From contig JAIOPP010000093.1 of assembly GCA_021413845.1 (NCBI GenBank), forward strand, positions 1 through 37,693: a stretch of 37,693 nt of DNA, in the 5' to 3' direction. This DNA is from Planctomycetia bacterium (GTDB lineage Bacteria; Planctomycetota; Planctomycetia; Pirellulales; PNKZ01). Within the stretch, counting starts at the first letter, position 1, and each line of letters opens with the position of its first letter. The notes beneath the pieces are model-generated. The model worked only from the letters and a program-made list of their open reading frames with translations. It was not told the origin of the DNA and did no database searches. The position numbers were made by a program, and so were the translations under genes. Positions 21,822 through 26,684 of this stretch are shown one piece after another.

Positions 21822-22130
21822 GCGTGGGGTTCGGCCGATGAGCAGGAAGGAAAAATCAAGCGGGAGCGGCGGCCGTAAGGGAAACGAACGCGACGCTGCC
21901 GGCGGGGGAATCGCGGGGAGGAACATCACTTTAATCGGTGCGCCGGCCCGGCGACAGACCCTACCTGAGGCGGCCGAAATACGTCGCCGGAGGTGAGTTC
22001 ATGTCGCTCGGCGATTGCGCGTCGGCCGTTTGACGACGCTCTCGGCGGCGACTATTCTCGCGGGAGTTTCGCTGCTCCGAAGTTCGCACATAGCTTCGCA
22101 TTCCGCTTCTATCGTCCGGAGAAAATCGTC
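21822..22130. other. Divergent intergenic region, 309 bp
   Basis: This separates the minus-strand cytochrome cluster from the plus-strand DUF1080-ThuA gene and must hold promoters for both. I see no hexamer pair I would defend, and no repeats. In-frame extensions of both genes run into it, but they lack signal peptides and are not used here. Confidence 0.4.
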
Positions 22131-23765
22131 ATGTTCGCACGCCTCGGCCTACTACTGATCACGGCGCTCACGCTCGCCGCTTCCGCTGCGACCGTTCGCG
22201 CAGCGGATCCCGAAGAGGGATTCATTTGGATGTTCGACGGTAAGTCGCTCGAAGGTTGGGACGGCGATCCGAAATTCTGGAGCGTCGGCGACGGCGGAGC
22301 GATCACCGGCCGCACGACTGCGGAGAACCCGACTAAAGGAAACACGTTCCTGATCTATCGCAAGGCCGAAGTCGCCGACTTCGAGTTCCGTTGCGAATTC
22401 AAAATCATCGGCGGCAACTCCGGCATTCAATATAGGAGCGAAGAAGTCGCGAAGTGGGTCATCAAGGGATACCAAGCCGACTTCGACGCCGGCGGCGGAT
22501 GGACCGGGTCGCTCTATGAAGAGAAGGGGCGCGGCATTCTCGCCAAGCGCGGCAACAAGGTCTTGGTTCCTGCCGGCGGCAAACCGGAGAACAAAGAATC
22601 GATCGTGACCGAGAAGGAAGTCGTCGATTCGGTGAAGAAGGAAGATTGGAATTCCTACACGATCCTCGCCGAAGGAAACCATCTGATCCAAAAGGTCAAC
22701 GGCATCACGACCGTCGATCTCGTCGATGAAGACGATAAGGCCGGCAAGAAGTCGGGCCTGCTCGCGTTGCAATTGCACGCCGGCCCGCCGATGACCGTCG
22801 AGTTCCGCAACATTCGGATTCGCCACATCAAATCCGCCAAGCCGGTAGAGAAAGTCTCGAAGCGCCTCGCTCCGCCTGCGGGCGAAGGAAAGAAGATCGT
22901 CTTCGTCGCCGGCAAGCCGAGCCACGGCTACGGGGCGCACGAACACAACGCGGGCTGCATTCTCCTCGCGAAGGAACTCGAGAAGGCGTTGCCGAATTAT
23001 AAGACGGTCGTCTATCGCAACGGCTGGCCGACCGAAGCCGGCGCCTTCGACGGTGCCAACGCAATCATCATGTATTGCGACGGCGGTGGCGGACACATGG
23101 TGAACGCCCACTTGGAAGAAGTCGACGCGCTGGCGAAGAAGGGGGTCGGCATCGTTTGCATCCATTACGGCGTCGAAGTCCCGGCCGATCCGGCAGGGAA
23201 GAAGTTCTTGGAATGGATCGGCGGTTACTTCGAGGCCAATTGGTCGGTCAATCCTCACTGGACTCCGAAGTTCGACAAGCTGCCCGAGCACGCGATCACG
23301 CGCGGCGTGAAACCGTTTTCGATCAACGACGAATGGTATTACCACATGCGCTTTCGCCCCGAGCTGCAAGGGGTGACGCCGATCCTCTCGGCGCTGCCGG
23401 GCCCGGACACGTTGACGCGCCCCGATGGTGCGCATAGCGGCAACCCGAACGTTCGTAAGGCGGTCGCGGCCGGCGAGATTCAGCACATGGCTTGGGCTTC
23501 GGAAAACGCCGGCGGCGGTCGCGGCTTCGGCTTCACCGGCGGTCACGATCATTGGAACTGGGGCTGTCCCGACTTCTTGAAGATCGTGCTCAATGCGATC
23601 GTTTGGACCGCGCACGGCGAAGTGCCGGCGGAAGGGGTCGTCGCGCCGACGGTGACGCTCGCCGAGCTTGAGAAAAACCAAGACTATCCGGCTCCCGCCA
23701 ACTTCAATCGCGAGACGGTGATCAAGAAGATCAACGCTGCCGGCGGCAAAGCCGACGGGGAATAA
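22131..23765 (+). CDS. DUF1080-ThuA fusion protein
   Basis: This 544-aa secreted protein starts at 22131 (GGAG upstream, signal peptide [20 protein letters not shown] after it). Residues about 28-240 are a DUF1080 jelly roll ([40 protein letters not shown]). About 254-510 is a ThuA domain ([63 protein letters not shown]). The same two domains occur as separate genes elsewhere in this window. Fusion supports the idea that they act on the same substrate, probably an oxidised (3-keto) sugar. It is transcribed away from the cytochrome cluster and ends at a hairpin terminator. Confidence 0.93.
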
Positions 23766-23849
23766 TTTCGCGCAACGTGGTTCGCAACATCGCATCTGCA
23801 CGTTGTCGGCGTGCGCGTGCGCAGCGGATCGTCATGCGTTGCCGGCATG

Positions 23850-23870
23850 CGCCGAGAATTATTCTCGGCG
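23850..23870 (+). terminator. Hairpin terminator after the DUF1080-ThuA gene
   Basis: CGCCGAGAA (23850-23858) pairs perfectly with TTCTCGGCG (23862-23870) around a 3-nt loop, followed by GTGTTTT. It lies 85 bp after the stop codon. The T-run is short and interrupted, so efficiency may be partial. Confidence 0.6.
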
Positions 23871-23886
23871 GTGTTTTAAAACGGCC

Positions 23887-23915
23887 TTGACCCTCGCCGG
23901 ACCTTCTCCTATTCT
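23887..23915 (+). promoter_or_regulatory. Sigma-70-type promoter for a candidate small RNA
   Basis: TTGACC (23887-23892), a 17-bp spacer and TATTCT (23910-23915). The spacing is optimal and the hexamers match consensus at five and four or five positions. It sits directly after a terminator and is not followed by any gene with a ribosome site, but by structured sequence ending in a strong terminator. Confidence 0.6.
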
Positions 23916-23921
23916 CCCGCC

Positions 23922-24184
23922 GCACGTTCGGACATGGCAACGACGCGAGTCGCGGCCGGGTTCGAGCGAGAGCGGTACGAAGCGGATATCCGCGCGATAG
24001 GGTCTGCACCGGAAGCGGCTTGCTCAGCGAGTTCGGTTCTGCGGACCACGGAGAGGTTCGTTCGGCAAGGATGCCGTCCGAAAGCTCCGGCATCGCGTCA
24101 TCTCGTATCGCGGGGCGTCCAATCGCTCCCGGAAAGATCGGCGTCCTTCGCCCCCCTGGGACCCGTCTTTCCGGGAGTTTTTTT
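23922..24184 (+). ncRNA. Candidate structured non-coding RNA, about 263 nt
   Basis: The interval starts just after a well-spaced promoter and ends in a 12-bp intrinsic terminator. Between them are several foldable elements: CGAC-GCGA-GTCG with a GNRA-type loop (23941-23952); a long rod closed by GGTCTGCA/TGCGGACC (24001-24008 with 24040-24047, one wobble) and containing an inner CTTGC/GCGAG stem; and GATGCCG/CGGCATC (24070-24076 with 24088-24094). Open frames crossing it have no ribosome site and read through the terminator. I checked by eye for signatures of 6S, SRP, RNase P and tmRNA and saw none. No plus-strand gene follows within 2.4 kb, so it is not a leader. The class is unknown and the ends are predicted. 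Confidence 0.5.
24126..24184 (+). terminator. Strong intrinsic terminator
   Basis: CTCCCGGAAAGA (24126-24137) and TCTTTCCGGGAG (24166-24177) form a perfect 12-bp stem with a 28-nt GC-rich loop, directly followed by seven T (24178-24184). It works on the plus strand only, because no A-run precedes it. It therefore ends a plus-strand transcript, although the nearest upstream plus-strand gene already has its own hairpin 250 bp earlier. Confidence 0.85.
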
Positions 24185-24234
24185 GCGCGCATGGATCTAC
24201 TGATGTAAGCGTTGCAAGTCGCGGCGGTGCGAAG

Positions 24235-25278
24235 TTAGCGCACCGTCTTATGCGGAGCGAGTAGCGGGGCTGCCGCGCTCGGCGCGATCACCACATCGTT
24301 CGGGCCGATTCCTGCGCCGACGAAGCCCGAGTGGTTCGAGAAGAGGTCGTCGCCGAGATCGCGACGTCGGCAACAATTCAGGAACAGCGCGTGGCCGTCT
24401 TCGAAGAAGACGTTCTGGCCGCCGCAGCCGTGGTTCAAACTTCCCAACGCGTGATCTTGCGGGGCGTCGGCCAAGAGCGCGAAGTGGGGCCGACTTTGAT
24501 TGCGGACGAAATGGTAGCTGCCGTCTTCGACGTAGCCCAGAGCGTAGCCGTAGCTACCTCCCATCTTCGCTGTCAATTTGTCGAGCGCTGCCGAATCGGC
24601 ATGCTCCAATTCGTCGAGCGTCGGAATGTTCTCGAACTGGGCGCAAGCCCGAGCTTGTCCCGGACAAACGACATCGCTCGCATCCATGAGCAGCCGCGCT
24701 TGCTGCAAGCGAGGAGCATAAACGCCGGCATGCGCCAGAGGGCCCGAGTGGGGAACTTCGGGGAATAGATCGCCGTGCGTGCGACTGTAGTCGATCAGAG
24801 CCATCCCTACGCGATGCAGTTTATCGCGGCAAGCGACGACGCGCGACTGATACCGCATCGACGCCAAGGCGGGAAAGAAGAGCAGCGAGGCAGCGACGAC
24901 GATTCCCGCCGTCACAGTCGCATCGGCCCAACCCCAACGCCGCGCGGGGGGAGCGGTAAGATCGACGGGCTGAGAAGCCTCGTAGCGCTTCCGCAGAGAC
25001 ATGAGAGAAGCAGCATCTTCGGACGGAACCGCTTCTTCGTAGCGCGACGAATTCTTTTCCACGACGTCCGCTAGACCCGAAATCCATTCACAAGTTCGCT
25101 TAGCGAGACCCTCGGGTGGGTCGTAGCTCGCGGTTGTCCCATCGATCGGTTCTAAACTTCGCCGGAGCAGTTCTAAGTCGCGGCGAAGTTCGGGGTCGAT
25201 CGAGAGTCGGCGTTCTAGTTCGCGTTCCTCGTCAGGCTCCAATGCTCTCAGCAAGTAGCCCAGCAATTTGTCGCGCAT
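24235..25278 (-). CDS. Anti-sigma-like membrane protein with a pseudopilin-like C-terminal domain
   Basis: This 347-aa protein is encoded 15 bp after the ECF sigma factor on the same strand. Residues 1-70 (LLGYLLRALEPDEERELERRL...) look like the N-terminal helical domain of planctomycete anti-sigma factors, without a zinc-binding HxxxCxxC motif. One TM helix lies at about 119-141. The outside part begins RYQSRVVACRDKLHRVGMALIDYSRTHG (two pieces, about 142-169) and later has NHGCGGQNVFFEDG (282-295). Both resemble the N-terminal and the H-x-DG segments of the DUF1559 prepilin-like family. The likely role is a transmembrane anti-sigma factor that senses an external signal through a borrowed DUF1559-like domain. 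The fusion reading is my inference. Confidence 0.72.
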   Translation of the reverse strand: MRDKLLGYLLRALEPDEERELERRLSIDPELRRDLELLRRSLEPIDGTTASYDPPEGLAKRTCEWISGLADVVEKNSSRYEEAVPSEDAASLMSLRKRYEASQPVDLTAPPARRWGWADATVTAGIVVAASLLFFPALASMRYQSRVVACRDKLHRVGMALIDYSRTHGDLFPEVPHSGPLAHAGVYAPRLQQARLLMDASDVVCPGQARACAQFENIPTLDELEHADSAALDKLTAKMGGSYGYALGYVEDGSYHFVRNQSRPHFALLADAPQDHALGSLNHGCGGQNVFFEDGHALFLNCCRRRDLGDDLFSNHSGFVGAGIGPNDVVIAPSAAAPLLAPHKTVR

Positions 25279-25293
25279 CGAACTTCTCGCGGA

Positions 25294-25941
25294 TTACGAT
25301 AGGTGGGCCTCTTGGAAGGCCTCGTTGAGCTTGAGCACTGCCGTGTGCAAGCGGCTCTTGACGGTGCCGACCGGCACGTTCAACCGATCGGCGGCTTCCC
25401 GATACTTGAGTCCCTGGTAGTAGATCATATTCACGGCTGAGCGCAACTGCTCCGGCAGTTCGCCGACGGCACCGCGCACCCACTCTTCCCGCTCGCCCGA
25501 CTCGAGGTTGGCTTGCGGAGCGGCCTCGCGGCTTTCCAGCAAGTTCAACAGCGAGCCCACATCGTCGTCGGCGTTTTCGCGCTCGCGTCGGTCCAAGCTT
25601 ACCAACTTGTGGCGCTTCGTGCGGCGCTGAAGGTCGATCGCTTGATTCGTCGCAATCGTATACAGCCACGGACGAACCTTACGATCGGCTTCGAACTGCT
25701 TGCACTTCAAGTGGACTTGGAGAAAAGTCGCTTGAAAGGCATCTTCCGCCGCCGCTTGATCGTTCAAGAATCGGCGAAGGTAGCTGTACAGTTCGCGCTC
25801 GTAGCGATGGACAAGCTGGTCGAAGGCCGCGCGGTTACCGGCATCGCGATACGATGCCAGCAATTCCTCATCGGTCCATTCTCCCAGCGTCCGAGCCGAT
25901 ACGCGAGCGATTCGTTGCAGGGGCAGTGTTGCTGTAACCAT
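25294..25941 (-). CDS. ECF-type RNA polymerase sigma factor
   Basis: This 215-aa protein starts at the ATG at 25941 (MVTATLPL). Region 2 spans about residues 35-108: FDQLVHRYERELYSYLRRFL, AAAEDAFQATFLQVH and FEADRKVRPWLYTIATNQAID. Region 4 spans about 160-210 with the HTH YREAADRLNVPVGTVKSRLH. There is no region 3, as expected for ECF factors. An acidic linker (ERENADDDVGS) joins the two. The anti-sigma-like gene follows after 15 bp, the usual pairing. The ORF extends upstream to 26076 but without family similarity or a ribosome site. Targets cannot be read from this window. Confidence 0.93.
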   Translation of the reverse strand: MVTATLPLQRIARVSARTLGEWTDEELLASYRDAGNRAAFDQLVHRYERELYSYLRRFLNDQAAAEDAFQATFLQVHLKCKQFEADRKVRPWLYTIATNQAIDLQRRTKRHKLVSLDRRERENADDDVGSLLNLLESREAAPQANLESGEREEWVRGAVGELPEQLRSAVNMIYYQGLKYREAADRLNVPVGTVKSRLHTAVLKLNEAFQEAHLS

Positions 25942-26684
25942 ATACGTGCCGTTTAAGGGAATAGTTCTCGACAACCACGTCGACGCTATTACCTCTCCTA
26001 AAAGCTTGCGATTCGTACTTCGTCGTCGACCGGAACCCGTTGCGAGAGGCCTCGATGCCTCTTTGGCAGGTACCACGCCCGGTCGGCGGGGCGAATGATA
26101 CCTTCTAATGCAACCGATATGCCGAACCTGTCGTCAAAGCGGTGAATGCGTGTGCAGTACACGGCACAATCGGCGCAAAACGTATATGTAGAAGCTAGTT
26201 GCGACGAATGAAATTTTTTGGTCCGAGTTCCAACTACGGCAGGATTGTAAAAACGGCCTCCTGAAAATTTTGCTGGCGGTTACATGGGTAAATTGCAGGA
26301 AATGTCGCACCTTACGATATTTTCCTTCATTTTCGCTCAGGGTTCTGCCGAGAAGCCGTCGTCCCCCCTTGTTGTGTCAATATGACGACAGGATGGCTCA
26401 AAGTGAGACGGCGAGTTCCCGCCGGCTAAGTGGCCGGTATGGAATGGCGTATGAAAATAGCGCAGCCGTATGAAATTGAAACTCCGAGCCGCAACTCATC
26501 GAAGCGTTCTCGGATTGAGATTGTTACGCCTCGCTCCGCGCTCTTGGTTCTTATTCATTACCGCGGTGTTGCCCTTCGCATAAACGAATTTTGTCGGGCA
26601 TTGAAAGCGCGACTACTCCTAACGAGAATGTGGCGAGAGCCCTGATTTTTCGTCTCCGTGTCGTCGCCCCCACTAGGATCGCGC
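25942..26684. other. 743-bp divergent intergenic region, locally AT-rich
   Basis: This lies between the sigma-factor gene (minus) and the DUF6786-like gene (plus). About 26190-26350 is clearly more AT-rich than the surroundings, with runs such as AAATTTTTTGG, which is typical of promoter DNA. A weak plus-strand pair TTGAAA - 17 bp - GAGAAT ends near 26630. A CCGGC-TAAGTG-GCCGG hairpin lies near 26420. Short frames here have no ribosome site and no recognisable product. No RNA family was recognised. Confidence 0.4.

Follow-up and report, generated by a model that had tools for sequence, protein, structure and literature searches.

The window, that is, the whole 37,693-nt stretch of DNA that was analysed, comes from a Planctomycetia bacterium (contig JAIOPP010000093.1). 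On its + strand, a 3-keto-disaccharide hydrolase/ThuA gene (21993-23765; Pfam PF06439 and PF06283) is ended by a hairpin at 23850-23870 (+), which bounds the locus described here and lies outside it. The downstream neighbour, an anti-sigma-like gene with NCBIfam anti-sigma matches below cut-offs, is carried by the opposite strand (24235-25278, -). Between them, a promoter occupies positions 23887-23915 of the + strand (-35 box TTGACC at 23887-23892, 17-nt spacer, -10 box TATTCT at 23910-23915). It is followed by a conserved GC-rich discriminator, CCCGCC (23916-23921, +). Transcription probably starts near 23922. Together with a terminator whose T run (seven T) covers 24178-24184 (+), this would delimit a small RNA gene of about 263 nt (23922-24184, +), both ends being deduced from the promoter and the T run. 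A 153-aa ORF on the minus strand (23731-24192) overlaps this gene; searches of Pfam (cut-off E 0.001) and of NCBIfam (cut-off E 0.01) assigned it to no family.

The original prediction had placed at this site an undescribed structured small RNA with its own promoter and terminator, starting right after the hairpin of the preceding gene and with no gene behind it on the same strand. Promoter, 12-bp perfect terminator with seven T, hairpin (23850-23870) and gene order are all as it described, and judged from the comparisons below the reading appears largely right. The RNA is also predicted to fold stably, as had been claimed: positions 23922-24186 reach -133.1 kcal/mol, compared to -112.0 +/- 4.9 kcal/mol for shuffled sequences (z -4.3; none of 200 shuffles as good). 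Pattern scans for single sites, when taken alone, are weak evidence for a promoter or a terminator: over 4.3 kb around the gap they returned 3 promoter-like sites for 0.7 expected and 7 terminator-like sites for 5.1 expected.

From 5′ to 3′, the RNA carries the following elements, all on the + strand. P1 is a self-complementary GCGGATATCCGC hairpin (23982-23993), read from the sequence. In P2 (24001-24047), GGTCTGCA at 24001-24008 pairs with TGCGGACC at 24040-24047, below a variable apical stem. P3 (24049-24089; helices 5 and 6 of alignment A1, see below) is a hairpin presenting a CsrA/RsmA-type loop, with CAAGGATG at 24066-24073. This is the sole CANGGANG motif of the window RNA, which contains nine GGA in total. 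A single-stranded CCAATCG (24119-24125), conserved in alignments A2 and A3, precedes the terminator hairpin (24126-24177). The latter consists of a perfect 12-bp outer stem (24126-24137/24166-24177), an inner stem given by the fold (GTCCT 24143-24147/GGGAC 24158-24162) and a C-rich loop, GCCCCCCT (24150-24157), the proposed pairing seed. In the predicted fold of the window RNA, CCCCCCU stands open in a 10-nt loop.

We then compared the locus with its homologues. A strict promoter, TTGAC-N-N16-18-TANNNT, was found within 520 nt upstream in 110 of 118 homologues, compared to 3 of 611 control windows, with a spacer of 17 in 104 of the 110. Over these 110 sequences the discriminator columns read C85 C95 C91 G65 C75 C99. 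Downstream of the hairpin, a T run (at least 5 T in 8 bases) is present in 115 of the 118. Both promoter and terminator are thus recurrent features. Three short forms (L090, L159 and L162) keep the hairpin and its C6 loop without a clear T run, and termination may be different there. A relaxed promoter rule added two loci to the 110, giving 112 RNAs that were used for motif counts; the six loci without a promoter were left out. RNA lengths, approximate since they were taken from 6 nt past the -10 box to 30 nt past the matched pattern, range from about 113 to 469 nt. A protein-coding reading was considered and rejected: the spacing of the two conserved blocks is even over the three phases (34, 31 and 28), and the longest ORF per RNA varies from 2 to 130 aa. 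We are nearly certain that Planctomycetia have here a free-standing gene for a non-coding small RNA, autonomous and conserved. The case for autonomy is comparative: it is built on the gene's own promoter, an intrinsic terminator, covarying stems, the lack of fixed neighbours and the lack of an Rfam family.

A DNA search found the RNA in 53 of 57 genomes (own genome included), mostly once. Model R1 gave matches in 20 of 294 genomes of the phylum and in 99 of 198 genomes of the class. Covariance model R3 was matched by 170 of the 297 class genomes sampled, among them 78 of 82 of the own order, Pirellulales, mostly with one copy. Outside the order, family f21 contributed 73 matched genomes, f112 contributed 17 and f115 contributed 2; two of the f112 matches are weak, at E 2.8e-4 and E 8.9e-5. 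None of the matches listed for these 297 genomes came from families f111, f113 or f114. The 37 sequences used to build R3 match by construction, since the model contains those hairpins. In a wider phylum sample, R3 matched 25 of 27 genomes of f21, and the best match of every matched genome within the class reached at least 53.5 bits. Thirteen genomes outside the class also matched, all at 30.1 bits or less; from these scores and their mostly short lengths, we judged them to be generic terminators. A pattern scan of a genome collection returned at least 118 stretches. Among the 80 matches listed, 78 were labelled planctomycete, including Blastopirellula marina DSM 3645 (Planctomycetia, Pirellulales), and two were labelled only ‘bacterium’. 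A mobile element was also considered and rejected: viral contigs gave 0 exact pattern matches.

Two blocks recur in the relatives, joined by a linker of variable length: a core (P1, P2 and P3) and a 3′ block. The core comprises a short palindromic P1 hairpin, a P2 stem in which GGUCUGCA pairs with UGCGGACC, and P3 with the CANGGANG loop; the 3′ block reads CCAAUCGCUCCCGGAA...GUCCUNNGCCCCCCUGGGAC...UUCCGGGAGC-Un. To follow the core, 30 members of the order were cut out using the CANGGANG motif and aligned (A1); the start positions of L013, L021 and L026, in which the P2 stem is not recognisable, were set by hand. Bases are paired in 83.9% of cells, compared to at most 42.3% in slid controls. 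Changes on both sides were observed in 22 of the 34 core pairs, and the covariation score is 0.268 for 0.159 in shuffles, with none of 500 shuffles as high. By element, 74% of cells are paired in the P1-like helix 1, 91.7% in P2 (helix 2), where 5 of 8 pairs changed on both sides, and 87.0% and 80.6% in helices 5 and 6 of P3. The P1-like helix of the relatives is a ATCCACGTGGAT-like hairpin located a few bases nearer to P2 than P1 of the window, and it is uncertain that the two are the same element. A TGCGGACC-like P2 core was recognised in 56 of the 112 RNAs. Each of the 30 A1 members carries one CANGGANG motif after P2, an invariance partly due to construction since the rows were cut out by this motif. 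CCAAUCG is kept in most Pirellulales rows and in many others, and is absent from the f112 and f115 rows.

The terminator hairpin is the most constant part. In 30 Pirellulales rows 98.5% of its cells are paired and it hardly varies: 7 of the 11 outer-stem pairs and 3 of the 5 inner-stem pairs never change. Variation becomes visible across the class, in alignment A3. Forty loci were chosen for it; L047 and L221 were missed by the pattern, and L042 was omitted as its hairpin is nearly the same as that of L041, giving 37 rows. Three matches of R1 were left out, L220 and L229 being plain terminators and L231 having no C6 loop, while L216, L226 and L227 were read and not chosen. In A3, 90.9% of the hairpin cells are paired and 7 of 16 pairs changed on both sides. 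Cells with such changes number 32 for 12.3 in shuffles, and the covariation score is 0.282 for 0.172. The conservation of stems in relatives that the original prediction had called for is therefore found in both the core and the terminator hairpin. The particular helices it had singled out, one with a GNRA tetraloop and a long rod, are not the conserved elements. Conservation instead concerns the P2 stem, the P3 hairpin with its CAAGGAUG loop, CCAAUCG and, within the terminator, the C6 loop.

The loop sequence CCCCCCU is unchanged in all 37 diverse rows of A3, which were picked by a pattern that itself holds CCCCCC. The hairpin bearing it is the only part kept in all groups read. Folds were also predicted for four distant members; in two of them, some bases of the C run form short additional pairs with adjacent ones. 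We also asked whether a duplicated C run is a general feature, and rejected this: C5 runs strictly 5′ of the hairpin number 27 for 20.4 in shuffles (112 RNAs), which is not a clear enrichment, and a cruder count (49 for 30.7) was inflated by the hairpin's own stem. A C5 or longer run 5′ of the hairpin is present in 23 of the 112 RNAs. In L042, L069, L070 and L073-L075, the C-rich motif looks duplicated, with an extra CUCCCCCC-like run preceding the terminator hairpin. In addition, genome G448 of family f21 has four terminator-hairpin matches (L224-L227) that are altered around the C run and may form a multicopy sRNA family.

The second conserved loop resembles a known protein-binding site. CsrA/RsmA sites have been described as RUACARGGAUGU by selection (PMC7652899) and by the consensus A/U-CANGGANG-U/A (PMC4353343). 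The P3 loop of the window RNA (24066-24073) matches the published site, with GGA in a CANGGANG-type hairpin loop. Over the 112 RNAs, CA(N)GGANG, in which the bracketed base is optional, was counted 159 times for 19.6 in shuffles, and 111 times inside hairpins for only 2.7. Each RNA has 0-3 of these motifs, and the window RNA one. At this position of the loop, no triplet is as frequent as GGA: among 416 hexaloop hairpins of the form C-NNxyzN-G, it fills xyz in 106, and the next triplet in 18. The total number of GGA is only mildly raised, at 2-15 per RNA with a mean of 8.0, compared to 5.7 in shuffles. The sequences are related, so that these counts are not independent; they show selection for the motif, not the number of independent origins.

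At least one CANGGANG hairpin is present in 79 of the 112 RNAs (one in 49, two or three in 30). By the rule used, 33 RNAs have none and 19 lack the motif altogether; CsrA binding therefore cannot be the universal function. The motif is absent from all 13 RNAs shorter than 150 nt, which leaves the terminator hairpin as the universal part. Where a second GGA hairpin exists, it lies 18 to 226 nt from the first, and these differing spacings suggest repeated gains. CsrA itself was found in 57 of 57 genomes, with 2-14 matches each and 10 in the own genome. Of three CsrA regions fetched from the latter, two gave complete proteins. In E. coli and in B. subtilis there is a single CsrA. We consider it fairly likely that the RNA binds CsrA.

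A GGA hairpin could also mimic a ribosome site, a possibility that arose since no hexamer is more enriched before start codons than CAAGGA. It was set aside since the base preceding GGA varies (C, T, A or G), which is allowed in CsrA sites, unlike in a ribosome site. CAAGGA was counted 17 times ahead of starts for 0.6 expected (ORFs in loci L038 and up, and in the window). Over 426 ORF starts, approximate as they are the first ATG of long ORFs, the strongest ribosome-site signal is AAGGA (41 for 2.8 expected). Many planctomycete ribosome sites thus also look like partial CsrA sites. G-rich sequences give a weaker signal at the same 426 starts: AGGGG is mildly enriched, with 12 for 4.4 expected, and G6 was found only 4 times for 1.1.

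Four genomes of the genus were searched for the loop complement CAGGGGGGC preceding an ATG. This gave 21 matches for 9 with the reversed pattern (3 for 4 in the own genome), and the ATG opens a frame of more than 200 codons in only 5 of 20 places. Comparing the downstream frames by eye, we found no two alike among these four genomes. As this search gave no shared target, the pairing step is an inference. We favour, by a small degree only, a pairing of the C-rich loop with mRNA leaders.

We propose the following mechanism. The RNA would act in trans on mRNAs, with CCCCCCU, held open in the 10-nt loop of the terminator hairpin, as the pairing seed. This seed could dock on G-rich leaders carrying AGGGG-type ribosome sites and block or alter their translation, as do LhrC of Listeria and staphylococcal sRNAs. 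In most members, one to three CANGGANG hairpins would in addition bind CsrA; the RNA might titrate the protein, or use it for its own presentation or stabilisation. GC-rich discriminators after the -10 box point to growth-rate or stringent control. The conserved GC-rich stretch found here suggests that synthesis of the RNA could be controlled in this way. Taken as a whole, the statement that this is an autonomous trans-acting sRNA combining a C-rich terminator-loop seed with a CsrA-binding module seems to us evenly balanced between right and wrong. A wider formulation is more tentative and probably goes too far: a class-wide core RNA linking the multiplied CsrA proteins with a second function, regulatory or RNP, based on the C6 loop. 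The terminator of this RNA would be its fixed working part, and CsrA hairpins would be gained and lost around it.

A first alternative does without the CsrA module. The RNA might be a base-pairing sRNA only, its function residing in the C-rich terminator loop, and the GGA hairpins lineage-specific ornaments bound by nothing particular. Such a reading agrees with the terminator hairpin and its CCCCCCU being the only element common to all groups, and with the 13 shortest RNAs doing without CANGGANG. The further upstream C runs, seen in few members and overall not clearly above shuffles, would also fit it. Against it, GGA hairpins exceed shuffles about 40-fold, and the differing distances of second ones argue for repeated selection; we regard pairing alone as doubtful.

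Conversely, it is the seed that would be lost if the RNA were a housekeeping molecule scaffolding a protein complex, with the near-fixed terminator hairpin as a protein-binding site. The invariant stem pairs within Pirellulales do exceed what a terminator needs, the RNA is near-universal in the order and mostly single-copy, and the loop-complement search of the four genus genomes found no target. Yet the stems of distant members have undergone compensated changes around an unchanged loop, as expected for a loop that is presented, and the spread of lengths is loose for a scaffold. We therefore think this reading unlikely, below that of pairing alone, and retain the trans-acting sRNA with both modules as our working proposal.

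The genomic context was examined for signs of an action in cis. No neighbouring gene is conserved. The most frequent family, whose sequence reads as that of a SIS-domain sugar isomerase, lies within three ORFs of 17 of the 118 loci. Relatives were expected to carry the RNA downstream of DUF1080-ThuA genes, and this association does not hold, no gene family being near more than those 17 loci; the accompanying view that a leader origin is less likely gains from the same count. The nearest downstream ORF is slightly more often on the same strand (59 loci) than on the opposite one (45), as might be required of a leader, or of an element regulating a neighbouring gene in cis. Against such an element stand the variable neighbours, the T-rich stretch that follows the hairpin in nearly all homologues and the orientation of the next gene of the window, and we hold it to be very improbable.

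Known RNA families were searched with Rfam. In the whole window, the only match at gathering score is a tRNA (2572-2644, -; 68.1 bits), and 6S (RF00013), SRP (RF00169), RNase P (RF00010) and tmRNA (RF00023) gave no covariance-model match. A lax search of the gap alone returned three chance-level matches (E 0.89 to 2.1). The best of these scores, 21.6 bits over the terminator hairpin, belongs to Scr3202 (RF02833), whose gathering score is 52; at E 0.89 it is at chance level. Among 20 homologous loci, three sub-threshold matches were obtained, all outside the RNA. The new RNA is on contig C93 of the own genome, which carries SRP on C138, RNase P on C148 and tmRNA on C137; these copies elsewhere contradict an identity with any of the three. 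A 6S match is present in 7 of 57 genomes, in each case on a contig distinct from that bearing the new RNA; the own genome has none. The original prediction, which by eye had seen no signature of these four, is thereby upheld, and a diverged copy of one of them, for which size and ubiquity could be invoked, is scarcely credible given that no family reaches its gathering score on the RNA and that the matches to all four, in the genomes searched, lie elsewhere. Separately, with the Rfam model and strict filters, 6S was detected in only 7 of 57 genomes of the order, in 3 of them over cut-off; planctomycetal 6S has probably diverged beyond the model or is missing in many genomes.

The family thus appears to be new, class-wide and absent from Rfam. 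A candidate motif from Planctomycetes without an Rfam number, Rhodopirellula-1, was reported by Weinberg et al. 2010 (PMC2864571). It is listed there as an ambiguous RNA, probably cis-regulatory and shared with Proteobacteria, whereas the RNA described here is free-standing and convincing in one class only; on this description the two are probably different. For the PVC group as a whole, a review table counts 8 sRNAs (PMC9029176). Among the matches listed in searches of the open-access literature, judged from titles and abstracts, none was a functional study of a small RNA from Planctomycetes.

Two groups of characterized RNAs come closest. In LhrC of Listeria monocytogenes and in staphylococcal sRNAs, C-rich loops pair with G-rich ribosome-site regions (PMC4132741, PMC9410917). 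In LhrC, as in RsaE, IsrR and FsrA of Firmicutes, loops carry C-rich stretches, and in LhrC one such stretch lies in the terminator loop, a disposition like that of the new RNA. The latter likewise combines a C-rich loop, predicted to be unpaired, with its own promoter and terminator. It differs from this group in giving no Rfam match, in its longer and fixed C run (CCCCCCU), in its GC-rich hosts and in the CsrA-type hairpins added in most members.

CsrB, a sponge for CsrA, has about 20 GGA motifs, and the new RNA has fewer. The likeness to CsrB/CsrC and RsmX/Y/Z lies in GGA hairpin loops matching CANGGANG, and the mean of 8.0 GGA is near the eight of RsmY and RsmZ in one Pseudomonas, three of which are in predicted loops (PMC4353343). 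Unlike these sponges, which have no need of it, the new RNA has a fixed C6 terminator loop. McaS and GadY of Escherichia coli are base-pairing sRNAs that have at least two GGA motifs and bind CsrA (PMC7652899). As proposed here, the new RNA would be of the same kind; it differs in having no Rfam match and in that motif hairpins number one in 49 and two or three in 30 of the 112 members.

Present in nearly all sampled genomes of the order and in further families, this RNA offers an entry to post-transcriptional control in planctomycetes. Its hosts carry 2-14 CsrA matches per genome, and it brings together a fixed loop and CsrA-type sites. A covariance model is ready for a new RNA family entry.

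Two further observations concern the flanking genes. A second promoter-like site, TTGACG-17-TATTCT at 22030-22058 of the window, begins 37 nt past the listed start of the hydrolase/ThuA ORF (21993) and precedes the likely real start near 22131. Sharing the same -10 hexamer, it suggests that this is the housekeeping promoter type of the genus and that the ORF has been given too early a start. On the other side of the RNA, an ECF sigma factor gene (25294-26076) is followed by the anti-sigma-like gene (24235-25278, -); in the product of the latter, the sub-cut-off anti-sigma matches are N-terminal, and the long, unassigned C-terminal part looks, by eye, prepilin-like (DUF1559-type).
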